Part shown: positions 1 through 18,486 of the stretch, one piece after another
How the letters are laid out: the number at the start of each line of letters is the position of its first letter
How positions within the stretch are numbered: the first letter of the stretch is position 1
Origin: a virus
DNA length: 20,683 bases
Reading direction: 5' to 3' (one strand)
IMG/VR virus record: IMGVR_UViG_3300042673_000046
Span: 1 to 20,683 of that record
The notes under the pieces: model-generated
Told to the model about the DNA's origin: nothing
Databases searched by the model: none
The model's input: only the letters and a program-made list of their open reading frames with translations
Made by a program: the position numbers and the translations under genes

Positions 1-3000
1 CAGCTGATGTGCCAATTTCAAAAGAAAGCGTTGGAGTTCCTGCAATTATTTCACTTTGATAATTTAATGAAACTTGGCTGCTACCCAATACAGTTCCATA
101 GTCAAATACTTCAACATAAGAACCAGAGCCATTATTAGGTTGAATAAATATAGGATAAGTTGCATCTATTTGTGCTTGTGGGTTAGCCCATGAACGAGAT
201 GTAAAATGAGTAGTCCATGTTTCTGTAGTATTTACAGGAAGAAGCAAACCTGCTCCATCATTAATGGCAGATGATTTAGTGCCGCTAAATGTACTGAAGT
301 ATTGTGCATTAAATACAAAATCAGGTGGCTGTGAAACTTGGCATGTAATGCTCACTGGAGATGATAAGTTATCGTCTGTATCACGTACAAGTAACCAATA
401 AGTATATGTGCCACCACTTAACTCTAGTATTGATGTAAACGTACCATTCTTATATCCAATTTCTTCAGCAGTTGCATAAACATCACCTTTCTTAATTAAT
501 ATATCTTGAATAGGTAATGAAGTCTTAGTTGGTAAATTCCAATATAACAATACATTGTTATCTACAATTTGAGTTCTTATCGTTGATATATCTATTGGGT
601 TTGGAGCAACTTTTGTTGCTGTAATCGCCAATGGATTTGATTCGCCATTTAAGAAATCAATAGTGTAAACATTGAATACTTTATCTCCAAGCCAATTAGC
701 AGGTAGCGTTATTGTGCTTGATTTTGTGTAAATTACATCAGTGTCATAAGTAATTTTATATTGATTTAAACCAAACAGAGGAGATACATCACTCCAATCA
801 AGCGTAACTGTAGCATTGGTTAAGCTAGTGTCAGCATAAGTATAAGATGGAATGTGCATCCCTGGAGCAACTGGAATAGCCCTAGTATAGTTTATTGCCA
901 ATGAAGTTGCTGAATACTTATTATCGGTGTCAAAAGAACGCACATACCATGTGTTTTCGCCTAAAACTGGTATTACAGAAAAGTTTAGTGCATTACCTTT
1001 AAACAAGAATCCTGTTGATCCCCAGGCTGTATCTGTATTTCTTAGCTCATATCCTGCAATTGGCAATGTTGTTCTAACTGAAGCTGACCATGATAACTGC
1101 AAAGCGTTATTTATTATTGAAGTTGAACTAAATAGTGGTGCGCTTGGTATTACTTTTGTTACGACAACAGATGTTGCTGCTGATTGTTTATTTTGTTTAT
1201 CAACAACAGTTACAGTAAATGTTCTTGCGCCAACCCAATCAACAGGAACAGTAAATGATGATGTTCTTGCTGTTACAGTAGTTGAGTTATAACCAATAAT
1301 GTAATGGCTTAATCCAAACTGAGGAGCAACATCTGTCCAAGATAGAGTTAAATCAGTGGTAGTTAATGAAGTGTCTAAGAAACTATAATTAACTACAGAT
1401 ACCGCAGGAACTATAGATGGAGTAAATTGAACTAATGCCGCATTGACACTATACAAATCAATAATATCAAGAGCTTTAACAAAGTAATCTTGAGTAATTC
1501 CAATTGGGCCTGGATTTAATAAAAATTCAGACGATGTTCCTCGATATAAATAATTATTATCGCCCCATCCTGAGTCAGTTATTCTAGCTTCATAACCCCA
1601 TAAGTCTAACTCAGCATTGTCATTCCAAGACAACTGTAGTTTATCTCCACTTACTGTGGCAATCAAACCAGTAACGTCTGCTGGAGGATTAGTTTTTCCT
1701 ATGACAGTATGATTATCAGCATAAGCCCAAGGGCCAGCTCTACCATCATCTGTAACGTATCTAACTCTAATTCTGTATTCTGAGCCTTCTTCTACATCTG
1801 AGAAGTAAATACAACCATCTCTAATATCAGATGATTGAGCTGTTTGCCATATCAATGATGTATCGCCAGAAAAGTCAATTTGTCCTTCAATGTATTTTGC
1901 AATAGAAGGCAATGTCGCAGGGTTACTAAATGATAATTTTATTCTGTAAAGAAATTGATTTGGAGCTGGGCGCAACATAACCGTTTCATCACTAATTATT
2001 GCAGTAATTACTGGCGCAACTGTAATCTTATCTTTCATCAATAATGGTGGAAGCGTTAATTGACTGTCAAATGCAGGTATTGGCTCTAAGTCACTATTGT
2101 AGATAGCAGGTGAATAATCAACCAAGGTTAAAAGAGCTGATAAGTTATTTGATGGCTCAATGCTTTGAACAATCAAATCAACTGAATCGCTACTTAATGC
2201 GCCAAACATAAATAGGTTATTTACAGCACCTTGGGTTGATGTAATTGAACTGGTTAATGTAATGGTGTCGTAATACCCATCTAAAGGCTTAGAGGCTACC
2301 GTACGTGTGATGCTAGACCCATCTTCTAAACGAATACGAATGGTGTAAGTAACACCAGCATCCATTGGCATAGTTTCATCAAGGCGGATAGATGTGCCTG
2401 AAATAAACTCTGCAATACGGCCAGTGCCTAATCCCCACATAGGTACGTCATGGCTAACTTTAACCAAGTCACCACGAGTACAGATTAAGTTCTCAATATC
2501 CGCGTTAAGCGTATAAGTTTCTGGGCGAAGTTTAATCTGTGCAAAATGAAAACGAGCATGTTTGAAAATTGCTGTGCGTGACGTTACGCCAGGGAATTGT
2601 ATTTGCTCAAATAATGTGGCATTTGTTTCATTGTAGCCATCGTTATAAACAATATACTCATCAGGCTGATAACCTTGGTCTGCATTTTTAAATGGAATTC
2701 TAAATGCGTGAGGCAACTTAGGTAATGCTTTAGTGGATTCAAATCCCCATGAGTTATGCGGTGTAAAATATTGAGCAGTTACAGTGCGTGGTTTATCTGT
2801 AACAACTGTCCATTTACCATCTATTAATGTTGGAGATGAACGACCTGCTGCACATATATCACGAAGCACATCTAAAAGACTTTGTTGGTCTGCTACGATA
2901 GAATCAAATATAAATTCATTTGTAGCACAATACTCATGCCAAGTTGCAATTGCGGTTAAGTCTAATTGCGCGTCTGTAACAGCCTGGGCATTAGCAGGAT

Positions 3001-5251
3001 GTTGCAATACATACCTAAACAATGATGCAGGATTGCGCGTAGGTCGAAGAACCCATGTTGTAGTTGCAGAATCCCAGTCTAAGCAAACTGAGATTACTGT
3101 CGCTGAAATGCCTTCTAGCGTTTGATTAATTTGGTCAGTTGCTTTAAATTTTAAAGCAGTCATAGCCATAGGCTTAGGTGGATTAACTGGTCTTGATGCA
3201 CCGTAGGCTGTAACTGAAGTTAAAATAGACATACTCATGCGCTGATACTTAATACCACCAGCAACGTATTCGTCAGTAGTAGGCGTATTTCTACGAATTC
3301 TTACTTCATACTTACCTTTTGGCACTATGAATGGCACATTGTAACTAAACGCATCTTTGCGTTTAACAAAGTCAGTTCCAGAAACACCAATACGAATTGT
3401 TGTATCCCTTCCTGTTCTACTAATGCTACCAACACCAATAGTTGCTGTAGTTTGTTTTACTACTGGCGTTGCGTAATAAGCCATGCCATAGTTATTATTA
3501 TCTGATGCTGTCTGAGTAGTTAAATTTAAACCACTGTATGTAGCTGGCATTGAACTGCGTCTATCTACTGTGCTAAATATTTTAGAGCCGTGCATACAAA
3601 TTCTATATAGCTCTATTTCATTTGTAGGAATAGTTGGATATAAAGTATATGTTGTATCTAAATTTCTTGTAGTGTTCTTTAATTTAGCAAGCATTGAAGC
3701 ACTTGGATTAGCTGTTGATGTATCTGAGTAACTACCATAACGCACAATAAGTTTATTAAACTTATCAACAGTCAAAAACGCCCATCTATAAACTGGTGTT
3801 GGAGTTGTTTGAAATCCTGAAGGAGTGCTGCCAAAAAATGCACCATCAAGAGTGACGGTTGATTCTTTAAATACATATTCAAGACCACCCCAAGGCTCTA
3901 ATGGAGCCAATGTATCATTATCTAATTGACGAACTTGTACATCAGCAGTAAACAATTCTTCCTTAATATTACCCGCACCCTTTCCATCCATTTGCAATAA
4001 TCTTAAGCCTCTTGGGAAATGCAAGTTCACACTAATAGAAGTGCATAATTCATTTACTACTTTTTCATACCAATATGATTCGGCCATCTCAACATTGACG
4101 GCTAATTGCTCAACGTCATTTGGATATATTGAATTAAAGTATGAGTAATTTTCACTTAAATCTTGAAAGCCACTAATAGTAGCTTGGTCTAATTCTTCAA
4201 GCGTATTAATGTCAGTTGACCCAATACGCATGTCAGATATTTGCAATGGGCCATAACCCCAAACCAATAACATTCTTAAGTAAGATGTATCTGTATTTGA
4301 TTCAGCGTATATCTGTGCGCCCAACAATCCTGTAAAGCGCATTTGACCCAATACAACAGGGATAGCACCGTATTGAGATGCTTGGTTGCTACCGCCTTGT
4401 AATAAGTTCTGAGCAAGGGCTGTGCCAGGAGATTCTGGCTGAGTTGGCATCCTAACTGGAAATATGGCATTTAATAATAAACTACCAACTACAGTAATAC
4501 CTGCTTGAACAGCCGTAGCAGTCCATCCTGATAATGCCAATGCTTCAGGGCCAACAATATAAGCCGCAGCCACTACAATCGCAATGGTTAATATCATTTT
4601 CAATACGCCACCTTCAGCAACGGCTCGGTATTGAATAACATCACCTGGCAATGGAACAATATGCCATTCTTCTTGTGGAACTAATTTGCCATTAACAAAT
4701 ATAACTGGCAATACATCGTATTCTTCAGCTACAGGATACTGAGCTTTAATATATTCAATAATTTCTGCAACAGAAGAATCTGCTGGAACCTGACCATCAA
4801 TGCGCTCAGTCTTTAACGGATGTGGTTTAATGGCAAGCGTTAAATCGCCTACGTTTACTTTTTCAACGTAACGATAGAAACCTTCAACGCGATGCTTCCA
4901 TATTCCAGTGTCAAAACGCTCAATGGTGGTGTCTGTATGCTCGCTGACGTGAATAAATTGATTGGGTGATACTACGACCCCAACGTGCATAAATAAACCG
5001 TTTACACGAAGCAGGGCAACGTCACCAATGGTAGGAGTTTCAACTTTTTCCCAACCTTCTTTACCCAAGGCAATAAGTTGTTCTATTTTAGTTTGCTGCT
5101 CTGCCTCGTATTCCTCAGCAAACGATGGAAGATCAATATTGTATTGTTCTTTGTAAATTAGCTTAACTAAACCCCAGCAATCAATGCCGTCTTTGTCACG
5201 GCCTTTCTTTAGGTACTTAAGACTAATGTAATCATTCCACCATGTTTTCAT
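1..5251 (-). CDS. Giant fused tail-tip protein: NlpC/P60 + gpI-like + gpJ-like + FN3 repeats (C-terminus beyond window)
   Basis: One uninterrupted frame of 1750 codons from the ATG at 5251 to the left edge; I checked every codon for stops. (a) Residues 1-130: NlpC/P60 endopeptidase with Cys25 (DGIDCWGLV), His89 (MHVGVVV) and His101 (FIHVSEH), spaced as in NlpC. It should cut peptidoglycan at DNA entry. (b) About 138-210: gpI-like, probably ubiquitin-like domain, IKPHPLKTERIDG to DVIQYRAV. (c) Hydrophobic helices at about 216-233 and 245-264. (d) From about 275: gpJ-like tip body opening with GGSNQASQYGAIPVVLGQM. (e) From about 1189: FN3-like domains in an A-B-A-B order, then a fifth at about 1548-1637. 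(f) About 1640-1750: beta domain with HFTSRSWANPQAQID, probably receptor side. In lambda K, I and J are separate genes. Start overlaps the DUF1833 stop (TAATG). Confidence 0.93.
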   Translation of the reverse strand, partial: MKTWWNDYISLKYLKKGRDKDGIDCWGLVKLIYKEQYNIDLPSFAEEYEAEQQTKIEQLIALGKEGWEKVETPTIGDVALLRVNGLFMHVGVVVSPNQFIHVSEHTDTTIERFDTGIWKHRVEGFYRYVEKVNVGDLTLAIKPHPLKTERIDGQVPADSSVAEIIEYIKAQYPVAEEYDVLPVIFVNGKLVPQEEWHIVPLPGDVIQYRAVAEGGVLKMILTIAIVVAAAYIVGPEALALSGWTATAVQAGITVVGSLLLNAIFPVRMPTQPESPGTALAQNLLQGGSNQASQYGAIPVVLGQMRFTGLLGAQIYAESNTDTSYLRMLLVWGYGPLQISDMRIGSTDINTLEELDQATISGFQDLSENYSYFNSIYPNDVEQLAVNVEMAESYWYEKVVNELCTSISVNLHFPRGLRLLQMDGKGAGNIKEELFTADVQVRQLDNDTLAPLEPWGGLEYVFKESTVTLDGAFFGSTPSGFQTTPTPVYRWAFLTVDKFNKLIVRYGSYSDTSTANPSASMLAKLKNTTRNLDTTYTLYPTIPTNEIELYRICMHGSKIFSTVDRRSSMPATYSGLNLTTQTASDNNNYGMAYYATPVVKQTTATIGVGSISRTGRDTTIRIGVSGTDFVKRKDAFSYNVPFIVPKGKYEVRIRRNTPTTDEYVAGGIKYQRMSMSILTSVTAYGASRPVNPPKPMAMTALKFKATDQINQTLEGISATVISVCLDWDSATTTWVLRPTRNPASLFRYVLQHPANAQAVTDAQLDLTAIATWHEYCATNEFIFDSIVADQQSLLDVLRDICAAGRSSPTLIDGKWTVVTDKPRTVTAQYFTPHNSWGFESTKALPKLPHAFRIPFKNADQGYQPDEYIVYNDGYNETNATLFEQIQFPGVTSRTAIFKHARFHFAQIKLRPETYTLNADIENLICTRGDLVKVSHDVPMWGLGTGRIAEFISGTSIRLDETMPMDAGVTYTIRIRLEDGSSITRTVASKPLDGYYDTITLTSSITSTQGAVNNLFMFGALSSDSVDLIVQSIEPSNNLSALLTLVDYSPAIYNSDLEPIPAFDSQLTLPPLLMKDKITVAPVITAIISDETVMLRPAPNQFLYRIKLSFSNPATLPSIAKYIEGQIDFSGDTSLIWQTAQSSDIRDGCIYFSDVEEGSEYRIRVRYVTDDGRAGPWAYADNHTVIGKTNPPADVTGLIATVSGDKLQLSWNDNAELDLWGYEARITDSGWGDNNYLYRGTSSEFLLNPGPIGITQDYFVKALDIIDLYSVNAALVQFTPSIVPAVSVVNYSFLDTSLTTTDLTLSWTDVAPQFGLSHYIIGYNSTTVTARTSSFTVPVDWVGARTFTVTVVDKQNKQSAATSVVVTKVIPSAPLFSSTSIINNALQLSWSASVRTTLPIAGYELRNTDTAWGSTGFLFKGNALNFSVIPVLGENTWYVRSFDTDNKYSATSLAINYTRAIPVAPGMHIPSYTYADTSLTNATVTLDWSDVSPLFGLNQYKITYDTDVIYTKSSTITLPANWLGDKVFNVYTIDFLNGESNPLAITATKVAPNPIDISTIRTQIVDNNVLLYWNLPTKTSLPIQDILIKKGDVYATAEEIGYKNGTFTSILELSGGTYTYWLLVRDTDDNLSSPVSITCQVSQPPDFVFNAQYFSTFSGTKSSAINDGAGLLLPVNTTETWTTHFTSRSWANPQAQIDATYPIFIQPNNGSGSYVEVFDYGTVLGSSQVSLNYQSEIIAGTPTLSFEIGTSA
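611..1687 (-). repeat. Tandem duplicated FN3-like domain pair (A-B-A-B) in the tail-tip gene
   Basis: Unit 1 is A1 (1687-1421) plus B1 (1420-1148); unit 2 is A2 (1147-881) plus B2 (880-611). A domains share LQLSW..., GYE.R.TD..WG and L.KG/YRG; B domains share DTSLT...LSW/LDWxDVxPxFGL and WxG/LGxxxFxVxxxD. Matching residues are 178-180 apart (Leu1205/Leu1383 in A, Tyr1289/Tyr1469 in B), so the unit is about 540 bp. Protein-level similarity is clear; DNA-level identity is low, so the duplication is old. Confidence 0.8.
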
Positions 5252-10652: not shown

Positions 10653-11155
10653 CAATCACTTCCTTCAGGTGCTACAGTATTAATACCTTGTTGCGTCAAT
10701 CTTTCACGAATTTTATTTGTTACTGCAATAACTGCATCATTGCCTTTTGTATCTAAAGCTGGGCGCATATATGGTTTAGCAATTGCGCCTGGGTGAGATA
10801 CCTGTGGCGTTTGTATAGATTTACCATCTTTCGCCATAAAACGTAACATACCACCGTTCTTACCTTTAATAAGATGCGGAGCCGTTCCAAACTCAACAAA
10901 GCGGTAGTACCAAGCCTTTTTATCTCCAGCCTTAGCATAGGCCTCAACTCGGCCTTTTTTCGCGTTACTGCCTGTTCTTATGCTTCGTTTTAAGTCACCA
11001 TCCTGCACAGCAACATTTTTCTTAGCTTCATTGGCAATAACTCTTGCGCCAGACCTTAAAGCTGCTCGCATAATATTCTTTTCAATTTTTAATGGCAATG
11101 ATTGAAGAAATTGAGCCAATTCCTTACCACCGCGAATATTAATTGTATCATCCAT
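10652..11155 (-). CDS. HK97 gp10-like tail completion protein
   Basis: 167 aa from the ATG at 11155. It matches the HK97-gp10_like family (PF04883), which acts at the neck or top of the tail. Seen: the opening with GGKELAQFLQSLPLKIEKNIM and the basic helix LRSGARVIANEAKKNV, then DGDLKRSIRT, the invariant WYYRFVEFGTAPH segment and the closing KPYMRPALDT. A longer frame to a TTG at 11203 exists, but the ATG gives the family-typical N-terminus. The stop overlaps the next ATG by one base (TGATG). Confidence 0.9.
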   Translation of the reverse strand: MDDTINIRGGKELAQFLQSLPLKIEKNIMRAALRSGARVIANEAKKNVAVQDGDLKRSIRTGSNAKKGRVEAYAKAGDKKAWYYRFVEFGTAPHLIKGKNGGMLRFMAKDGKSIQTPQVSHPGAIAKPYMRPALDTKGNDAVIAVTNKIRERLTQQGINTVAPEGSD

Positions 11156-11492
11156 TTTGAGAGTAGTCCTCAGCCGTAAATTCCATTGCTTCTCTGCGAC
11201 CAATCTCAGCAGGTTTAGTTACGATCTGCAAGATTCTATTATCTCGATCAAGCATAACAATTCTCATTGTCGCATTAATTCCATTATCGTACCTAACCAA
11301 TACTTTGCATGGTTGCTTAAGTAGCCTTAAATCACTATTAGTAGATTCTTGCATACGAGTGGTAATGTCCTGGACATTTGCCCAACATTCCTTGTATGTA
11401 TCCCATGAGATAACTTCAGAACCATAATTCTCATCTTTGGTTACTATCTTTTTCTCAATGCGAATATATCTATCTAATTTTCCAACTTGCAT
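11148..11492 (-). CDS. Head-tail joining (head closure) protein
   Basis: 114 aa, the usual size for the Phage_H_T_join family (SPP1 gp16 / HK97 gp7 type) that closes the neck below the connector. The family opening is seen: QVGKLDRYIRIEKKIVTKDE, then the conserved ECWANVQDI strand near residue 36, a central variable stretch, then IRYDNGI-type beta hairpins (KVLVRYDNGINATMRIVML) and the closing RREAMEFTAEDY. The start shares a base with the connector stop (TAATG), so it is coupled. It overlaps the following gene by eight bases. Confidence 0.88.
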   Translation of the reverse strand: MQVGKLDRYIRIEKKIVTKDENYGSEVISWDTYKECWANVQDITTRMQESTNSDLRLLKQPCKVLVRYDNGINATMRIVMLDRDNRILQIVTKPAEIGRREAMEFTAEDYSQNG

Positions 11493-12100
11493 TATACGCC
11501 CAACCCTAATCGATATGATTGTAATAAGTTATATACGCCCATTGGCAATGAGTTAAATGTTACTCTTGAACTACCTAACATATCCTCTTGGCGGTTTTCA
11601 TACAAGCTACCAATCAACAATAACATGGCTGATTTTATTGGATTAGGCAAAGGCAGCAAGTTTGTTCCTACTGTTTTTGTGTATCCAGCCACATACTCAA
11701 TAATCACTGCTGTTTCGCGAGTGACTGTGTTTGGCCATGTTTTATTTACTTCCAAGTAAATAACTGAATCAAAGTAATCTACATAATAAACAGAAGGATC
11801 CAATGTTTGCAGAATATTTGATGTGTCGTAATATTTAACTGATGTAACAGATTGTACAGGAGCCAAAGGCAACTCAATAGCATTTTCAAACTTACTTAAA
11901 GACATTGTAACTGTTTGAGTTGCTAAAGCTCTGCGAACGTATTGTTCACACCATTCTCTTGCAGATGATATTAATAATGTAATATCTGAATCATCAGGAT
12001 GAGCTAGTGGGTACCCAAATGGCTCTATTCTAAGATGGCTTCTTGCTTCAGATAGAGTAATCGGCTCTGAAGTTACTTGAGTTGTTATTTTATATTTCAT
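11492..12100 (-). CDS. Head-tail connector, gp6-like (Phage_connect_1 / phiE125 gp8 type)
   Basis: Adaptor ring that docks under the portal after packaging. From the ATG at 12100 it is 202 aa. The start has the classic family opening, EPITLSEARSHLRIE, then the DDSDITLLISSAREWCEQYVRRAL helices, a beta middle (IELPLAPVQSVTSVKYYD, followed by YYVDYFDSVIYLEV), the AVIIEYVAGYT segment, and C-terminal helices with IKSAMLLLIGSLYENRQ. The ATG at 12109 is an alternative start (three residues longer), but GGA eight bases before the ATG at 12100 fits better. Its stop overlaps the next start as TAATG. Confidence 0.9.
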   Translation of the reverse strand: MKYKITTQVTSEPITLSEARSHLRIEPFGYPLAHPDDSDITLLISSAREWCEQYVRRALATQTVTMSLSKFENAIELPLAPVQSVTSVKYYDTSNILQTLDPSVYYVDYFDSVIYLEVNKTWPNTVTRETAVIIEYVAGYTKTVGTNLLPLPNPIKSAMLLLIGSLYENRQEDMLGSSRVTFNSLPMGVYNLLQSYRLGLGV

Positions 12101-12121
12101 ATCAATCATCCATTTTAAAAT

Positions 12122-12190
12122 CTAAACATCATTATTAGATACTATTTTTAGTTCTTTAACTAATGCTTTTAACGCAACAACTTCTTTTAG
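12122..12190 (-). other. Short coiled-coil-like reading in the -1 frame after the DUF7936-like gene
   Basis: The 77-base gap before the neck genes contains an open stretch that overlaps the DUF7936-like stop in the -1 frame and reads LKEVVALKALVKELK, then IVSNNDV and a stop at 12122. The hydrophobic spacing (V4, L7, V11, L14) is heptad-like and resembles the helical tails found at the ends of S74 and fibre proteins. No ATG and no good ribosome site precede it; a TTG at 12223 is the only start. No X XXY YYZ slip site is present at the junction. It may be a remnant of a longer C-terminus or a chance reading. Confidence 0.25.
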
Positions 12191-12531
12191 ATAGTTGCAA
12201 CAGGGGTTGGTTGTGGTTGCCAAGGCAATGGTGGTGATTCTAATTGCTGTTGGCTTAACAATGCTTGATTAACGCTATTTTTATATTGTTCAATTACCGC
12301 TAATGGTGTGTATGTATCAATCCAACCCAAAACTATTTCTTCGGTTAATTGGTCAAATGGCACAAATGATGAACCTGCTATTGTTGGAACATAAGTCATT
12401 GCAGGGCATGAAGTTGTATAAGTATCTTCTGTTCCTATTAAACTCCAATAAATGTTATAAACAACATTAACTTCGCCGTCTAATTCTTTATAAGCCTGAA
12501 CAGAGTTAATTTTTTTTGTATAAATAATCAT
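12187..12531 (-). CDS. DUF7936-like protein next to the fibre genes
   Basis: 114 aa. The N-terminal ~75 residues have the pattern of a small family commonly encoded beside phage fibres: VVYNIYWSLIGTEDTYT, then FVPFDQLTEEIVLGWID, and a helix LAVIEQYKNSVNQALLSQQQ. The end is Pro-rich (ESPPLPWQPQPTPVATI); a terminal LPW motif is typical of this family as I know it. Its biochemical role is unknown; a fibre assembly or capping function is only suggested by position. The start overlaps the stop of the S74 fibre (ATGA). Just past the stop codon a -1 frame continues with a coiled-coil-like stretch, listed separately. Confidence 0.75.
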   Translation of the reverse strand: MIIYTKKINSVQAYKELDGEVNVVYNIYWSLIGTEDTYTTSCPAMTYVPTIAGSSFVPFDQLTEEIVLGWIDTYTPLAVIEQYKNSVNQALLSQQQLESPPLPWQPQPTPVATI

Positions 12532-14306
12532 TTTTGACCTTTCAATTTAGCAATTTCAATCTTTAATTCTTCAATTTCTTTTCGTAACAAGTTTACGCCC
12601 TCAACAAGCAATGGTGTAATTTTGTCATAATTGATAGTTAGATAATCATAATCCTGCTGTGTGCCATCTTCATTAATTCTATTTAACGATTTATTTACTA
12701 CAACCGCGTCAGGCAATATGGCTTGAACTTCTTGTGCAATTAACCCAATTTCTTCTTTGCCAACTTCAATATCCAATTCTAATTCTTTAACTTTGCTATT
12801 CCAGTTAAATCTATATGTTGTAAGTTTGCTTAAAATATCCAATGATTCATTGCGAATTGGAATTAAATTTTCTTTTAATCTTCGGTCTGACCAATATGCT
12901 GTTACATTGCCTGGACTAAAAAAGTTTGTTCCCTCAACATAATAACGCCAACCGCCGCCTATATTTCTATGAACACCAACACCCCCGTCATTCATCATTA
13001 AGGTTTGTTGTCCATCAAATTCAATGCCTTTCCAACCATTACGCGAACCATCTAAACGCCATGCACCGTATGAACCATTATTAGGGTAAAAATGTGCGCC
13101 ATTATTAGGTGAATAAAGCCCTGAATAATTTGGCATTTCAATCCATTCGCGGCTGTAATTTCGCACCGATGAATCTATGCGACCTGCTGTTGTTGCATTG
13201 GTGGCTGTTCCAGCATATCCAACATAACAAGGGGCATGATAGGTATCATTATAATATCCACGCAAAGACCAATATCCACTTACATCCGCACTCCAAGTTG
13301 TTTGGATATTATAAGGGTCATTACTATCATTACGATATAAACGATAAGCCCCTGGTCTTGCGGCACTTGTCCACATCCCTGTTTGACCTGTAATGCCTGA
13401 TGCGGCAACAGATGATGCACTTGCCGCATTGCCTGAACATGATGCTGATGAAGTGGCGGCATCTGCATAAGCTACCTCAACTGCTGATGGAGAGGCTGGA
13501 TTTACATTAAAACGCCATCTAGTTCCATTATAAGATAAATAACCATAATACGGATTTGCTGAATTATAATTGTATGCAGCATCTGTTGAATACAATTTAG
13601 ATGAATTTGTAGCAAAGGTAGCCGTTGTAGCCGTTGCCGCATTACCTGTGCATGAACCTGAACTGCCTGTGGTGTTTTGATTAAGCGTTGGGAATGTGCA
13701 ATTTGTTAAAGTGCCGCTTGATGGTGTTCCTAATGCGCCGCCTACTGAATACTTGCCATTAAAAGTATTCCAATCAGTTGATGTTAAGTAACCATTAACG
13801 CTTGTTGTTGCCGCCGCCATGCTTATTGCAGGTGTTGCGCCACCACTTGAAACAACGGGTGCTGTGCCTGTTACGCTTGTAACCCCACCGCCTGAACCAT
13901 TTGCAGCAGCCGTAATGCGGCCTTGTGCATCAACGGTAATGTTTGTGTTGGTGTAAGAACCTGCGGTAACGGCTGTATTAGCCAGTGAAATAGTACCACT
14001 TGCTGTTATTGGGCCACCTGATAAGCCTGTTCCTGTGGCAACGCTTGTTACCGTTCCTGTTCCGCCAGCAGAATTAACCCATGCTGTGCCATTCCAAGAC
14101 AGGCTTTGACCGTTTGTTGGTGAAGTTATAGTTACATCGCCAAGGGCTGACAACACGCCAGCCCCGACTTGAACAACAGATGTACCATTGTTGATGTAAA
14201 CTTTTTTATCTGCCATGTTTACACCTAACTCACCTGATAACAACTCAGATGTGTTAGGCACTTTAGCGGCAGTATTAGAACGCTTTGGTTTGATTACATT
14301 AGCCAT
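12528..14306 (-). CDS. Fibre protein with C-terminal S74 intramolecular chaperone
   Basis: 592 aa. An N-terminal adaptor domain (MANVIKPKRSNTAAKVPNTS, then GELGVNMADKKVYINNG) is paralogous in layout to that of the 466-aa fibre. A shaft with ALGDVTI...GQSLSWNGTAWVN and a NTAVTAGSYTNTNITVDAQG repeat follows. Residues of about 220-470 are Tyr/Asn/Gly/Ser-rich and probably carry the receptor-facing tip. The last 120 residues are a peptidase S74 domain beginning at SDRRLKENL: Ser473 with Lys478 gives the Ser-Lys pair five residues apart used for self-cleavage before the serine. The domain ends in a Leu/Ile/Lys coiled coil (LLRKEIEELKIEIAKLKGQK). The chaperone helps trimer folding and is then released. 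A GGGA-type ribosome site precedes the ATG. It overlaps the next gene by ATGA. Confidence 0.9.
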   Translation of the reverse strand: MANVIKPKRSNTAAKVPNTSELLSGELGVNMADKKVYINNGTSVVQVGAGVLSALGDVTITSPTNGQSLSWNGTAWVNSAGGTGTVTSVATGTGLSGGPITASGTISLANTAVTAGSYTNTNITVDAQGRITAAANGSGGGVTSVTGTAPVVSSGGATPAISMAAATTSVNGYLTSTDWNTFNGKYSVGGALGTPSSGTLTNCTFPTLNQNTTGSSGSCTGNAATATTATFATNSSKLYSTDAAYNYNSANPYYGYLSYNGTRWRFNVNPASPSAVEVAYADAATSSASCSGNAASASSVAASGITGQTGMWTSAARPGAYRLYRNDSNDPYNIQTTWSADVSGYWSLRGYYNDTYHAPCYVGYAGTATNATTAGRIDSSVRNYSREWIEMPNYSGLYSPNNGAHFYPNNGSYGAWRLDGSRNGWKGIEFDGQQTLMMNDGGVGVHRNIGGGWRYYVEGTNFFSPGNVTAYWSDRRLKENLIPIRNESLDILSKLTTYRFNWNSKVKELELDIEVGKEEIGLIAQEVQAILPDAVVVNKSLNRINEDGTQQDYDYLTINYDKITPLLVEGVNLLRKEIEELKIEIAKLKGQK

Positions 14307-14322
14307 TTGGCTTCCCTTTCGT

Positions 14323-14334
14323 TGCTATATAGCA
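14323..14334. repeat. 12-bp perfect palindrome between the two fibre genes
   Basis: TGCTATATAGCA is self-complementary and lies in the 41-base gap between the 466-aa and 592-aa fibre genes, just before the ribosome site of the second. It could form a small hairpin or be an operator, but it has no T-run and may be chance. Confidence 0.35.
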
Positions 14335-14347
14335 GGGTTAATATTAC

Positions 14348-15748
14348 TTAGAATGTGCCACCGTCAATAGTTATTCCGTCAATTGAACCGCCTGTGATTG
14401 CCACATTGCTTGCCGCTTGTGTTGACATTGTGCCAAGACCACTAACTTGCGTATTAGCAATAGCAATGGCTTGAGCTGACAACGCTGTTAATTGACCTCG
14501 TGAGTTTACGGTAGCAGATAAAGTATTGCTTGCTGAACCATAAGATGCAGCAGTAACGGCTGTATTAGTAATGCTAAATTCACCGCCAGTTAATGTTAAA
14601 CCAGCGCCAGCAGTGTAAGTACCTGCACCTGAGAATTGAACAAAATTGATTGCTGTTGTACCTAGTGTACCACCAGCATTAGCTGTTGAAACCCAACCTG
14701 TATCTGCTTGAGTTGTACCATCTTCAATAAATGTAAACGCATTTGGCACTTCAGCCCAATCATCCATATCTGCTGCGCGTGACCATGTGCTTGCAGCAGC
14801 AACATAAATACCGTTTGCAGAAGCAGTTGATTGATTTTTTACCAATACACGGTCACCAGCAACAACAGAAACGCCATCAATAGTTTGTGCGCCTGATAAT
14901 GTAATTGGCCCAGTTGTAGCCGCAACGCATGATGCTTTTGGGTCTAAACCTTGTGCAACGCTATCAACATATTGTTTAGTTGCCGCGTCTTGTGCAGAAA
15001 CTGGGTCAGCAAGACCAGTAATTTTAAAACCACCAAAAGCGTAATCAGCAGTTGGAACAGTCAAATCATTGATGTTTGCAGAAGCCGCAGCAGTTACAAG
15101 ACCTTTAGCATTTACAGTTGTTTTTAAGAATGTGCCAACATTGCTATTGACCGTTGCCAATGTGCCTGTTGCAGTAACATTACTTGAACCGTCAAATGAT
15201 GGACTTGTGTAAGCTAAATCGCCTGTAATTGCAATTGTGCGACCTGTAGTTAAAGCCGCAGCAGTAGTTGCAGTTGAGGCATTACCAGTTAAAGGGCCAA
15301 CAAAGCTGCTTGATGTGACTGAAGTTAAGCCAGCCAATGTAGTTGATGATGCACCAAGAGCAATAGCTGTTGTACCAACCGTTACGCTTGAGTTTACTAA
15401 TTTAGCATTGGCAATTGAGCCAGCCAACATTGTGTTAGTTACTGTGGCTGTATCAGTTGTATATACACCATTCGTTACGGTGCCAGCATTTCCGTTTATT
15501 GAACCATCAATCGTATCTAAAAATGTTTTAGTACCATCAATAGATTGATTAGTTGACGTATCGACAAATGCGCCATTACCAGCAATGGCAATAACGCTAG
15601 TAGCAGAACCGCCAGAGCCACCAGTGCCTGTTCCGTAGTACAGAATGTTCGTTTGTTCGTTAAACGCTAATTCAGCGTTTTCTAAAGATGCTGGAGCGCC
15701 AGCGCCACCGCCACTAGCCCTACGTTTAACTCTGATTGTATTTGCCAT
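14348..15748 (-). CDS. Fibre protein with phage fibre repeats (466 aa)
   Basis: A trimeric fibre candidate. The N-terminal ~40 residues (start MANTIRVKRRASGG, then LENAELAFNEQTNILYYG) form a small adaptor domain of the type common at the N-termini of phage fibres, and the same layout starts the next gene. A long Ser/Thr/Ala/Gly-rich beta shaft follows. Near residues 235-260 is FKITGLADPVSAQDAATKQY, the phage_fiber_2 type shaft motif, followed by a globular segment with VSVVAGDRVLVKNQSTASANG and WSRAADMDDWAEVPN, which is a widespread fibre domain. The C-terminus ends in short Gly/Ile-rich repeats (GGSIDGITIDGGTF) with no chaperone domain. AAGGA lies before the ATG at 15748. Whether it sits on the head or tail is not shown; gene position favours the head side. 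Confidence 0.85.
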   Translation of the reverse strand: MANTIRVKRRASGGGAGAPASLENAELAFNEQTNILYYGTGTGGSGGSATSVIAIAGNGAFVDTSTNQSIDGTKTFLDTIDGSINGNAGTVTNGVYTTDTATVTNTMLAGSIANAKLVNSSVTVGTTAIALGASSTTLAGLTSVTSSSFVGPLTGNASTATTAAALTTGRTIAITGDLAYTSPSFDGSSNVTATGTLATVNSNVGTFLKTTVNAKGLVTAAASANINDLTVPTADYAFGGFKITGLADPVSAQDAATKQYVDSVAQGLDPKASCVAATTGPITLSGAQTIDGVSVVAGDRVLVKNQSTASANGIYVAAASTWSRAADMDDWAEVPNAFTFIEDGTTQADTGWVSTANAGGTLGTTAINFVQFSGAGTYTAGAGLTLTGGEFSITNTAVTAASYGSASNTLSATVNSRGQLTALSAQAIAIANTQVSGLGTMSTQAASNVAITGGSIDGITIDGGTF

Positions 15749-15761
15749 GATAATTCCTTAA

Positions 15762-16013
15762 TTAAAAATTTCCACCATCTGCTAGAGATTCTTGCCGCCT
15801 ATTAAACCAAGCAGCTCCATTAAAACCCAATACATCTCCGTTTATTAAACCTGACGCAGAAACTGGATAACCAGCAATGTTACTTGAACCAGATGGGCCT
15901 TGTGGCCCTTGTGGGCCAACGGCTACAATATTTACTATTGCAGGTTGCTGCTCAGTGTATATTTCAACAATTTCAGGAGCTAAATCACGGATAATTTCAA
16001 CAACATCGGTCAT
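15762..16013 (-). CDS. Small collagen-like fibre-associated protein
   Basis: 83 aa. Residues 1-32 are acidic and hydrophobic and probably helical or beta (VVEIIRDLAPEIVEIYTEQQ). About residues 33-42 contain GPQGPQGPSG, three Gly-X-Y triplets of the kind that start a collagen-like triple helix in phage fibres. The C-terminal part (GDVLGFNGAAWFNRRQES) resembles the 'G-D-v-L-x-w-n-g-x-x-W' motif seen at the shaft start of many phage fibres; the same kind of motif (GQSLSWNGTAWVN) occurs in the S74 fibre downstream. It is coupled to the upstream gene by an ATGA overlap. Likely a trimeric connector or short fibre component; the exact role is inferred from these motifs and position. Confidence 0.75.
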   Translation of the reverse strand: MTDVVEIIRDLAPEIVEIYTEQQPAIVNIVAVGPQGPQGPSGSSNIAGYPVSASGLINGDVLGFNGAAWFNRRQESLADGGNF

Positions 16014-16351
16014 CGAGTAACCTCTGCTGAAATAACAACCTCTCCTTGAAGTAGCCTTGTTACTGTTCCATCTGCACTTTGTAACTCTAGGTCATACCTA
16101 GCGCCTAATGTTGGCAATGTTGATGTTGTTGTTGCTGAAACAGATATTTTAATTGAGCCATCAGACCCTAGCGTCATTCCGCTTGTATTGGTAAGGTTCA
16201 ATATGACATTTTCTGTCTTAACTTGACGTACTTGCATACGAGAAGTATATGTTGACAAATTAATGGCCACTCCATTACTATCTTTCCATATAAATTCTTG
16301 GTAGTAAGTTGCACCTTGCTCAATATATATATCATAATTTGCTGCTGGCAT
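16010..16351 (-). CDS. Small beta-sandwich virion protein at the head of the fibre cassette
   Basis: 113 aa with an alternating beta pattern: the opening DIYIEQGATYYQEFIWKDS, then INLSTYTSRMQVRQ, then ARYDLELQSADGTVTRLLQG near the end. This layout (intrinsically ordered Ig-like sandwich, 'E-G-x-T ... W-D ... Y-D-L-E ... G') is known from many small phage proteins encoded beside fibre genes and is reminiscent of BppU-type N-terminal adaptor domains; that similarity is a guess, not a match I can verify. It is the first gene after the promoter at 16390-16419, has a GGGG ribosome site seven bases upstream, and overlaps the next gene by ATGA. Likely a fibre adaptor or decoration protein. Confidence 0.72.
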   Translation of the reverse strand: MPAANYDIYIEQGATYYQEFIWKDSNGVAINLSTYTSRMQVRQVKTENVILNLTNTSGMTLGSDGSIKISVSATTTSTLPTLGARYDLELQSADGTVTRLLQGEVVISAEVTR

Positions 16352-16389
16352 AACTTACCCCATTAGTATCTATTCAATTATCTACAATC

Positions 16390-16419
16390 ATTATACATTA
16401 AGTTTTTTGACTATGTAAA
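16390..16419 (-). promoter_or_regulatory. Sigma70-like promoter upstream of the fibre cassette
   Basis: On the minus strand a -35 box TTTACA (16419-16414, five of six matches to TTGACA) is separated by exactly 18 bases from a perfect -10 box TATAAT (16395-16390). It sits in the only real intergenic gap of this region, 16352-16421. The expected transcript start is near 16383, about 30 bases before the ATG at 16351. It would give the fibre genes their own transcription start inside the late operon. Confidence 0.65.
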
Positions 16420-16421
16420 TA

Positions 16422-17039
16422 TTAAGGTCTTTCTTCCCACCTGGCTCTAAATATACCAGTTGCTGTTGCGCCATCAATATTAATCAAATGAATATAATAT
16501 GTTCCAGGAGCAAAGCCTTGTGGCTGTTCTTCTGACGCGGAACTGTCCACTGATTTGTTTGGATTGTTTCCACTAAATAAACGTAACAAATCAACAGTTG
16601 TTCCGCCAGTGTGTGTTCCACCAGTTGCCATTGTTATTTGTGGCGTATAAGCAGACGCGGAACTCATAGTATTTGTTTTAAATATTGGCAATGCTGTATT
16701 AAACGTACCACCTTCAGTTCCACCATAACGCAATTCAACTCTTAACTCAGCTAAATGCAATTCAGCACCGAAATTTTGAACAATAGTATTAATTGGCGCT
16801 ACAACCTTAATAACTCGTTCCTGACCTGTTGGTATTGAAAACTCATAGAATGTTCTAGCCTCACGACCAGCGAAAAATCCAGTTTGACCAACATCAACAC
16901 GCATACGAGCGTATATACCATTTCCATCTGTCATTAAGACTTTAGGAGGATAAGCCTCCACTCTCTCAGCATGGGTGCCATCACCCATGTCTGTAAGTAG
17001 TTTTAAAAGCCCTTGCCAAAATGGAAATTTTGTATTCAT
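16422..17039 (-). CDS. Virion-associated protein of unknown role, beta-rich, 205 aa
   Basis: No family name can be given with confidence. The protein is rich in Gly, Thr and beta-branched residues and has no signal peptide, membrane segment or catalytic motif. Notable blocks are GQTGFFAGREARTFYEF (about 51-67), TPQITMATGGTHTGGTTVD (about 132-150) and the C-terminal GTYYIHLINIDGATATGIFRARWEERP region. Proteins with this GQTGFF..TFYEF / TGGTHTGGT pattern are familiar as hypothetical structural proteins of other phages. Its place right after the capsid genes suggests a head decoration or head-fibre protein; that is inference. Its stop is two bases from the intergenic stretch that contains a promoter for the fibre genes. 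Confidence 0.75.
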   Translation of the reverse strand: MNTKFPFWQGLLKLLTDMGDGTHAERVEAYPPKVLMTDGNGIYARMRVDVGQTGFFAGREARTFYEFSIPTGQERVIKVVAPINTIVQNFGAELHLAELRVELRYGGTEGGTFNTALPIFKTNTMSSASAYTPQITMATGGTHTGGTTVDLLRLFSGNNPNKSVDSSASEEQPQGFAPGTYYIHLINIDGATATGIFRARWEERP

Positions 17040-17041
17040 AA

Positions 17042-17251
17042 TTATTTAGCTTTTGTTTTTGTTGCTTTAACAGCTTCAACTGTTTCTTTAACAGCTTCAA
17101 TTTTTGGTTCAACCACTTTAGTAGAATAAACTTCTACAGCTTTCTTTTCTAAATACATATCAACTTGGTCTTTAGGCAAATCAACCTCTTGGCCAATACC
17201 AACTTTACCTAAACGGTCATGGTAAATTACTTTAAGTGTTTTAACTAACAT
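17042..17251 (-). CDS. Small Lys/Glu-rich protein downstream of the capsid gene, function unknown
   Basis: 69 aa, not assignable to a named family with confidence. The N-terminal ~35 residues (YHDRLGKVGIGQEVDLPKDQ) look like a small compact fold of the kind often found as short accessory head genes just after the capsid gene. The C-terminal ~25 residues are a highly charged, basic tail with a seven-residue repeat (EAVKETV, EAVKATK) and end in KTKAK. A good AGGGGAT ribosome site lies just before the ATG at 17251. The stop is two bases from the next gene. Possible roles are head decoration or assembly, judged only from position. Confidence 0.72.
   Translation of the reverse strand: MLVKTLKVIYHDRLGKVGIGQEVDLPKDQVDMYLEKKAVEVYSTKVVEPKIEAVKETVEAVKATKTKAK
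17065..17100. repeat. 15-bp direct repeat with 21-bp period inside the small Lys/Glu-rich gene
   Basis: CTTTAACAGCTTCAA occurs at 17065-17079 and again at 17086-17100 (plus-strand sequence). The 21-bp step equals seven codons, so the repeat duplicates one heptad of the charged C-terminal tail. Probably a recent slippage duplication. Confidence 0.85.
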
Positions 17252-17261
17252 AATATCCCCT

Positions 17262-17300
17262 AAAAGATAAAAGGGGAGGCGGATTTCTCCAGCTCCCCTT
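17262..17300 (-). terminator. Hairpin terminator candidate after the major capsid gene
   Basis: On the minus strand AAGGGGAG (17300-17293) pairs perfectly with CTCCCCTT (17278-17271). The interior can extend the stem by a U-G and the pairs GGA/TCC closed by a GAAA (GNRA) loop. A T-rich run TTATCTTTTA follows. It begins 11 bases after the capsid stop. This has the form of an intrinsic terminator, perhaps partial so that capsid mRNA exceeds downstream mRNA. A stabilising 3' hairpin is the alternative. Confidence 0.65.
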
Positions 17301-17310
17301 AATTCAACTA

Positions 17311-18486
17311 CTAAGCAGTGAAGTTACCGTACAAGATACCTGTAGGGCGGTCAACACCAAGACCTAGGCGTTCTTCAGCGCGGATTGTCACTAAGTTTTT
17401 AGTGAAGTCATCGTTGATGTAGCCCATTTCAACAGTAGAACCTTGGCGGTCATAAGCAATAGCAGAGCCATTCAATTGACCAATCAAGAATTTACCAGCA
17501 GCCATGTTGTTTGACAACACGATTTGAACGCCAAATGGGTTCATACCAGCAGACATGCCAGGCATACCGTATAGATACTCACCAGAACCACCAGTGTATG
17601 TTTCACGAGTACGCTCCATTGCGCCCCAATCAGCAGGGTTCACAATAACTGTGTCTGGTGCGCGACCAATAGCCCACAATTGGTATTTAGCACGGTTGAT
17701 AGCATCAACTAGCAAATCACCAGCAGTAGCAGTGTAAGCAGTGAAGTTACCTGTGTCTGTCAAACCTGATAGGTTAGGAGATGTACCGTCACCGTTCAAT
17801 AATTGGCTGTCCACTTTTTGAGCTAAGCCATCGCGTAAACGTGTGTTGATGTAAGCAGCAACAGCAGGAGCATCAGCCAATAATTGGTTAGATACTTTAA
17901 TCCAGTGAGCTACAGTTTCAATTGCTACGTTGTATTGTTCAAATGTAACATCTGATTCAGGTTTAGCAGCACCTTGAGCAACGCCAGCAGCATCGTTAGT
18001 CCATGATGCTTCACGTAGGCTGTTTACCATGTTGCTAGTAACACCGATTGAAGGTAATACTTGGCGGATAGTTACAGGAGCAAAGTTACCTGGGATGATA
18101 CCAGCACGTTGCAATGGGAAAGCAGTTGTAGAACCAGAAGTAACAGTGTTTTTTACTTCCATGCGGATGATAGCATTGCGGCTATTTGCGCTTAGGAATG
18201 ATTTGAACTGTTCTGATTTAACGAATTCTTCACCAGCAGTAACGATAACTGATTCTTCTTTGGCTTTTACGCCTTCAGCTAATTTTTGACCTAAAGATGT
18301 GATTTCTGCATTGATTTTAGAGTAATCTTCAGCAAGTTGTTTAACTTCTGATTTAACTTCTGTATCAACTTTAGATTTCTCATCTAATTGACCGTGGTAT
18401 TGAGCCATTGATTTCTCAAGAGCAACTTGTTTTTCAGAAAGGGCTTTTAAACCGCTTTCCAACATTGTTTTGATTTCTTCAGACAT
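17311..18486 (-). CDS. Major capsid protein, HK97 fold
   Basis: Forms the icosahedral shell. It is 391 aa, close to the 385 aa of HK97 gp5, and the two align by eye from about residue 125 onward: KPESDVTF, the VAHWIKVSNQLL spine-helix segment, QLLNGDGT, VNPADW, and a C-terminal FTKN...RAEERL...RPTGILYG block. Residues 1 to about 110 form a charged, heptad-like helical delta domain that serves as internal scaffold. By alignment protease cleavage should fall near residue 112, leaving a mature protein of about 279 residues. The residues matching HK97 Lys169, Asn356 and Glu363 (crosslink partners and catalyst) are Lys175, Asn364 and Glu371. An AAGGAT ribosome site lies about eight bases before the ATG. 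A hairpin terminator candidate follows the stop. Confidence 0.96.
   Translation of the reverse strand: MSEEIKTMLESGLKALSEKQVALEKSMAQYHGQLDEKSKVDTEVKSEVKQLAEDYSKINAEITSLGQKLAEGVKAKEESVIVTAGEEFVKSEQFKSFLSANSRNAIIRMEVKNTVTSGSTTAFPLQRAGIIPGNFAPVTIRQVLPSIGVTSNMVNSLREASWTNDAAGVAQGAAKPESDVTFEQYNVAIETVAHWIKVSNQLLADAPAVAAYINTRLRDGLAQKVDSQLLNGDGTSPNLSGLTDTGNFTAYTATAGDLLVDAINRAKYQLWAIGRAPDTVIVNPADWGAMERTRETYTGGSGEYLYGMPGMSAGMNPFGVQIVLSNNMAAGKFLIGQLNGSAIAYDRQGSTVEMGYINDDFTKNLVTIRAEERLGLGVDRPTGILYGNFTA

Follow-up and report, generated by a model that had tools for sequence, protein, structure and literature searches.

Why does a phage with an HK97-type head carry a set of fibre genes between its capsid gene and its connector genes? 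The question is raised by IMG/VR record IMGVR_UViG_3300042673_000046, a 20.7-kb virus contig from an uncultured phage, whose full 20,683 nucleotides are referred to here as the window. Its structural genes all lie on the minus strand, in the order portal, protease, HK97-type capsid, 69-aa protein, 205-aa protein, 113-aa protein, 83-aa protein, fibre A, fibre B, DUF7936 protein, gp6-type adaptor, head-completion protein and further genes up to a J-type tail protein. The capsid, portal, gp6, head-completion (hcp), tape-measure and J genes thus stand in the order of an HK97-type siphovirus with a J-type tail. Between capsid and gp6 we delimit an exchangeable cassette of five genes (12187-16351), and we propose, from its sequence relationships, that it encodes an accessory adhesin mounted on a conserved adaptor at the head-neck region, probably at a collar. 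We assign this reading a probability of roughly 0.48.

The cassette and its presence among relatives

The five cassette genes, in the order in which they are read, are as follows.

16010-16351, minus strand: 113-aa LtfC-like fibre adaptor, the first cassette gene (phrog_1084, 5.7e-25; phrog_3304, annotated as L-shaped tail fiber protein assembly, 9.5e-11)
15762-16013, minus strand: 83-aa linker with the collagen-like stretch GPQGPQGPSG, aligned with the linkers of modules found after J in other phages
14348-15748, minus strand: fibre A, 466 aa (phrog_2647, head decoration, 1.8e-33, and tail-fibre PHROGs)
12528-14306, minus strand: fibre B, 592 aa (Peptidase_S74 at residues 473-535, 2.1e-15; tip 93% identical in nucleotides to L211 and L223)
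12187-12531, minus strand: DUF7936 protein (2.9e-13, above the Pfam cut-off)

The 113-aa gene immediately precedes the fibre genes, as expected of an LtfC-like adaptor; its match to Pfam LtfC itself (0.0023) falls under the curated cut-off. The start of the 83-aa gene overlaps the 113-aa gene by 4 nt and the DUF7936 gene overlaps the stop of fibre B by 4 nt, so the genes of each pair look co-translated. The linker has a unique N-terminus and a conserved C-terminal half that ends in DGGNF. Fibre A consists of a GELAxN-type N-terminus, a conserved domain at about residues 226-430 and a C-terminus reading IDGGTF. Its match to BppL_N is weak (0.00044, below the cut-off), and a domain search of the window proteins gave no match to a BppU-type N-terminal domain in a fibre protein. 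Fibre B combines an Mtd_N-like N-terminus (Mtd_N 0.044, sub-threshold), an exchangeable tip and an S74 intramolecular chaperone, which scores 57.2 bits against a cut-off of 22. The DUF7936 protein is a probable partner or chaperone of the fibre tip.

Relatives were collected by a capsid search in IMG/VR, which gave 80, some of the cassette-bearing ones being partial contigs. The megablast search against phage records found no match to the window DNA, and a search of genome contigs returned one capsid relative only, a distant one in Lysobacter. The five-gene unit is cleanly absent from G003 (L007), whose capsid protein is 95% identical to that of the window, and from G004 (L008), at 93%. The tail genes of both are mostly 80-100% identical to those of the window, and gp6 follows about 40 nt after the 205-aa gene. 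The more distant G007 also lacks the cassette. It is present in G001, G002, G005, L004, L005, L100, L101 and L105, with other fibre B tips and no DUF7936 gene in G002 and G005, and variants of it occur in G006 and L194. The cassette is therefore optional among close relatives, being absent from G003, G004 and G007, as would be expected of collar fibres. The distance from the major capsid protein (MCP) gene to gp6 is 5.2 kb in the window versus 0.9 kb in cassette-less relatives.

The features that flank the cassette on the capsid side, and the J gene at the other end of the window, are listed below.

16390-16419, minus strand: promoter-like site, TTTACA-18-TATAAT (11/12 match)
16422-17039, minus strand: 205-aa protein, predicted beta-sandwich (phrog_13935), outside the exchangeable unit
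17042-17251, minus strand: 69-aa protein, kept in cassette-less relatives
17271-17300, minus strand: intrinsic-terminator hairpin downstream of the capsid gene, with TTATCTTTT after it (RNAfold, -20 to -21 kcal/mol)
17311-18486, minus strand: HK97-type MCP (Phage_capsid 2.6e-42, phrog_10)
2-5251, minus strand, running off the record: J-type central tail protein (phrog_31, central tail fiber J, 4.9e-96)

The window stops inside J, and the region beyond it was read in complete relatives only. In the complete cassette-bearing records G002 (42 kb) and G005 (43 kb), fibre genes still lie directly after J, so the cassette is an additional fibre set and not a relocation of the phage's only tail fibres, which these post-J genes rule out. 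The post-J fibre genes are G002_23, G005_23, G004_20 and G007_18. Those of G002, G005 and the cassette-less G004 have an N-terminus (MADHS..NTSTY) in common, and that of G007 is similar; with or without the cassette, then, these phages have a separate fibre at the tail tip.

A preliminary description of the locus, made from the window alone, had proposed an extra fibre cassette at 12187-17039, and the clean absence in relatives together with the separate post-J fibre region bears this out. The genes that it named all lie where it placed them on the minus strand, and its insert between capsid and neck genes is real, its figure of about 4.8 kb comparing with the 5.2 kb from MCP to gp6 given above. 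Its suggestion to look for clean absence in close relatives was followed, and what is missing in G003 and G004 is the cassette, not 12187-17039 as a whole. The 205-aa gene is retained in the cassette-less G003, G004 and G007 and absent from L006, which has the cassette. Because it varies independently, we limit the exchangeable unit to 12187-16351. The 205-aa protein was also considered as a base of the RcGTA head-spike type and rejected: it does not co-vary with the cassette, and its beta-sandwich model (mean pLDDT 78) found no PDB match at E<=0.001 and the protein no profile match. Many relatives encode the 205-aa protein behind the capsid gene, at varying distance from it, and so do cultured phages of Pseudomonas, Vibrio and Leptolyngbya.

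The preliminary description had further considered a mobile unit of moron type, started by a promoter of its own and bounded upstream by a terminator. The products of such a unit might not be part of the virion. Presence and absence in relatives, the promoter match before the first gene and the hairpin upstream all agree with such a unit. The promoter-like site exists and is retained in cassette-bearing relatives; however, one match per 7 kb against a mean of 0.475 in shuffled sequence is ordinary by chance, and TATAAT stands at the same place in the cassette-less G003 and G004. The hairpin is likewise real, though not as a boundary of the unit. Hairpins occupy the corresponding position in the cassette-bearing G002 and G005 as well as in G004 and G007, which lack the cassette, with a changed sequence in G007 and G006, and on this distribution the hairpin is part of the backbone rather than of the cassette. 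On the gp6 side no terminator was found by a consensus scan, which also failed to pick up the 17300-17271 hairpin, and no repeats were found at the cassette boundaries, where the longest shared word is 9 nt. Since promoter and terminator do not come and go with the cassette, which moreover lies on the strand of the structural genes, is packed among them and consists of fibres and a dock, we reject the moron as very improbable.

Homologous modules after J and the exchange of fibres

Fibre A has homologues with 46-80% identity in other siphophages. In all 58 loci outside the window's lineage with a readable upstream side, the homologue lies 0.8-4.1 kb after a J-like gene (about 1000-1125 aa). 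There, a protein of about 162 aa and a relative of the 83-aa linker come before it, and a relative of fibre B usually comes next. Only in the window's lineage does fibre A come after the capsid gene, and there the 113-aa LtfC-like protein replaces the 162-aa protein. The post-J modules of uncultured siphophages (L211, L218, L223 and others) thus agree with the cassette in gene order, fibre A and the C-terminal half of the linker, and they differ in standing after a J-like gene, in the 162-aa protein and in an unrelated linker N-terminus. DNA similarity to them starts only where the linker ends, in its last codons at about cassette position 570, and extends neither to the 113-aa gene nor to the N-terminal part of the linker.

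At the other end, fibre B tip and DUF7936 gene (cassette 3162-4165) are 93% identical in nucleotides to L211 and L223, where the DUF7936 protein accompanies the fibre B tip at 95% amino acid identity. Directly downstream lies a further feature.

12122-12186, minus strand: remnant, about 66 nt long, of a G002-type fibre B gene (its 3' end), found by blastn, which reads KEVVALKALVKELKIVSNNDV followed by a stop

The alignment to the 3' end of G002 fibre B has 77/79 identical bases with one 27-nt gap (E 1e-20). Judged by this alignment, the remnant between DUF7936 and gp6 is the scar of a tip replacement. The shared-DNA boundary, the identity of the tip and the scar together indicate that recombination has swapped fibres between the post-J slot and the slot in the window while the dock stayed in place; we read this exchange without a direction of transfer.

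The homologous modules also raise the possibility that the cassette fibres are ordinary side tail fibres, held at the tail tip or along the tail by an LtfC-like dock at the tail end as in T5-type phages. All 58 post-J loci speak for it, and so does DT57C, where LtfC forms a dodecameric fibre-docking ring at the tail tip (PMC10713586). On the other side, the tail tip of the complete relatives is held by their separate post-J fibre set, and the neighbourhood of the dock, described in the next section, points elsewhere. We therefore consider a tail-tip location unlikely, though to be kept in view.

The ends of the cassette proteins suggest how the parts may be joined. The linker and fibre A, otherwise unrelated, end in DGGNF and IDGGTF, respectively. 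In the fetched loci, a DGG[NTS]F/Y ending is found in 60 of 60 fibre A-type proteins and in 56 short linker-type proteins (<=130 aa), compared with 3 of 54 fibre B-type proteins. The gene next after one with this ending encodes a GELAxN-type protein in 100 of the 106 cases with a near neighbour. We hypothesize that the DGG[NTS]F end and the GELAxN N-terminal domain act as plug and socket, giving a chain from linker to fibre A to fibre B, the tip.

The docking site and the probable collar

The genes next to the cassette on the connector side are the following.

11492-12109, minus strand: gp6-type head-tail adaptor with a type A attachment domain (Phage_connect_1 2.5e-9, phrog_442)
11148-11492, minus strand: head completion (stopper) protein (Phage_HCP 2.9e-15)

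Several features of this neighbourhood argue for a dock on the head-neck side and against one at the tail tip. The LtfC-like gene recurs with a collagen-type linker gene between capsid and connector genes in the distant capsid relatives L031, L048 and L052, and in L034 the pair stands right after gp6 and hcp. G006 keeps the 113-aa (78%) and 83-aa (77%) genes although homologues of t121, t171 and J were not detectable among its tail genes; this speaks against a dock at the tail tip. Between relatives with and without the cassette it is gp6 that differs, not the tail-tip genes. The gp6 tree, with a type A clade supported at 98/98, conflicts with the backbone, where the window groups with G003 and G004 (96/99). 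In the podovirus-like L183, L184 and L185, an LtfC-like gene with 53-54% identity lies after putative adaptor genes and is followed by collagen-like fibres.

The preliminary description had suggested head fibres or capsid-anchored adhesins. The position among head and neck genes has held up, with the same type of adaptor recurring in distant capsid relatives; attachment to the capsid itself is only a possible reading. Fibres on the capsid surface would require the conserved domain of fibre A to bind the HK97-type shell and display fibre B. Residues 272-450 of fibre A do match PDB 9nx3, a "Capsid decoration protein" (E 7.5e-9) of a type encoded by cluster C mycobacteriophages, and this homology to a solved decoration protein agrees with the phrog_2647 match and with a position of the cassette genes after the capsid gene. 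RcGTA, moreover, carries head fibres on its capsid pentamers (PMC7296036). Against this, fibre A homologues up to 80% identical stand with tail-tip genes in many unrelated siphophages, so the fibre A domain need not bind a capsid; homologues accompanying capsid rather than tail genes would have been expected, and the 58 loci all follow a J-like gene. Fibre A also matches tail-fibre PHROGs, and the module starts with an LtfC-like adaptor, a fibre dock and not a capsid binder. Capsid-surface fibres thus appear improbable, and no more likely than a neck collar.

We therefore favour the following model, in which we infer the ring form, the neck location, the order of the chain and the receptor role. 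What the sequences themselves show is the gene content, its presence or absence in relatives, the homologues after J, the different adaptor, the scar of the tip swap and the rule for the C-terminal motif. The stretch 16351-12187 would encode an accessory host-adhesion fibre besides the normal tail fibres. Its dock would be the LtfC-like 113-aa protein, placed on the head-neck side and most likely shaped as a collar ring that encircles the head-tail connector; the 83-aa collagen-like linker would extend from this dock. Fibre A would be attached to the linker and would itself carry fibre B. At each joint, the GELAxN N-terminal domain of one protein would receive the C-terminal DGG[NT]F plug of the protein before it. 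Fibre B, folded with the aid of its S74 domain and probably of DUF7936, would form the tip that binds the receptor. The dock and the linker would remain among the head-neck genes. Fibres and tips would be traded, through recombination, with modules that other siphophages attach to the tail tip via the different 162-aa adaptor. More tentatively, and with clearly less than even confidence, we suggest a general two-level exchange of adhesins, in which a position-specific dock (the LtfC-like protein and the linker N-terminus) is fixed at neck or tail tip and plug-and-socket fibres move between these sites, so that one fibre could be mounted at the neck by one phage and at the tail tip by another.

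Some observations weigh against the collar or its supports. LtfC docks fibres at the tail tip in known cases, and gene order is only loosely tied to position in the virion, so that the place of the genes does not fix the place of the fibres. The relationship of the fibre A domain to a deposited capsid decoration protein would fit attachment to the capsid, and the monomer model of fibre A is poor (mean pLDDT 59), with no fold match. The approximately unbiased test on the gp6 conflict gave p values of 6e-5 and 0.01 for gp6 groups that had been named after inspection of the alignment. The change of gp6 with the cassette could be co-adaptation, or gp6 may have hitch-hiked as part of a single recombination block. 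In L034 and L048 the LtfC-like and collagen pair occurs together with a short gp6-type gene without attachment domain, so this domain is not strictly required, which weakens it as a candidate for a necessary dock. Finally, the DGG[NTS]F counts come mainly from two homologous families and hence include few independent cases; the plug-and-socket rule is accordingly offered as a hypothesis.

The slot between capsid and connector genes holds other accessory genes in other relatives. Sialyltransferase-like (phrog_4603) and MptE/Maf-like glycosyltransferase genes and family 29-like and methyltransferase genes occur there in G008, L014, L028, L031, L110 and L194, those of G008 at L098 6234-9445; a possible role is glycosylation of the virion or of the host surface. 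In the slot of G008, the fibre genes are directly preceded by a second gene of major-tail-protein type (L098 5755-6228, phrog_158, 51% to the major tail protein of the window). In L198 and L110, which have a type B gp6, the slot holds a 133-aa phrog_644 protein and a repetitive protein ending in basic RR, just before gp6. The slot fibre of L014 (6795-8590) carries a C-terminal variable repeat, and a template repeat and the C-terminal remnant of a reverse transcriptase lie downstream; 26 of the 32 differences between the repeats are at template A, as is typical of a diversity-generating retroelement. The content of the slot is consistent with a hotspot for surface-exposed functions in host recognition or surface modification. 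Yet another unusual location is seen in L270 (7945-17500), where a fibre A homologue and a 1422-aa fibre have a probable terminase gene on one side and the portal, protease and capsid genes on the other. The whisker protein of Alteromonas phage R7M, assigned by its paper to the head-tail module, was considered as a relative and rejected; searches with the slot proteins of type B relatives gave distant cyanophage matches only.

Known systems and significance

Neck fibres on a reused anchor have a precedent in lactococcal phages, in which an anchor of baseplate type also serves as neck collar and the fibres are optional (PMC6669499). The neck passage structure (NPS) of the 936 and TP901-1 phages resembles the cassette as an optional fibre module (73 of 113 phages) with an accessory role in adhesion. 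Its beta-sandwich anchor, also of baseplate kind, and its trimeric fibres with carbohydrate-binding tips can be set beside those proposed here. The NPS consists of a single fused protein whose N-terminus is of BppU type, whereas dock, linker, two fibres and chaperone are encoded by separate genes in the cassette, the dock is LtfC-like, and the neck location is deduced from genes. In the LtfA-LtfB-LtfC system of T5 and DT57C (PMC10713586), an LtfC-type adaptor is likewise encoded beside two fibres and holds their base; there LtfC sits at the tail tip, whereas the cassette gene occupies the capsid-connector slot and a collagen-like linker is added.

The head fibres or spikes of RcGTA (PMC7296036) and phi29 are comparable as accessory, possibly head-side fibres that aid attachment. 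Their proteins are unrelated to those of the cassette, apart from the similarity of the fibre A domain to a mycobacteriophage capsid decoration protein, and for the cassette fibres capsid attachment is only putative. The RcGTA adaptor Rcc01688 (PDB 6tba), like the gp6 of the window a protein of about 200 aa, matches it by profile (4.1e-10 over 188 positions). It is a dodecamer whose parts are tube helices, a beta attachment domain, a loop and a C-terminal hook (PMC7296036). The attachment domain binds the capsid in RcGTA; in the window's group, this is the region that differs between relatives with and without the cassette. A dodecameric LtfC and a dodecameric adaptor fit a collar by analogy and prove nothing. 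On balance, the reading that fits the cassette best is a tail-fibre module to which a different adaptor has given a dock on the head-neck region. As far as our literature and database searches reached, the combination of parts and the possible joint code are new; the parts themselves are of known kinds.

If this reading is true, a phage could gain a second set of host-binding fibres through a different dock, leaving its tail tip untouched, and a small change of adaptor would let phages move one fibre set elsewhere on the particle. This would explain why fibre sequence alone cannot assign genes to tail or head, and the step from a DGG[NTS]F end to a GELAxN start would provide a rule for reading the order of multi-part fibres from genomes. 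The series of near-identical relatives with and without the cassette makes the effect of extra neck or head fibres directly testable.

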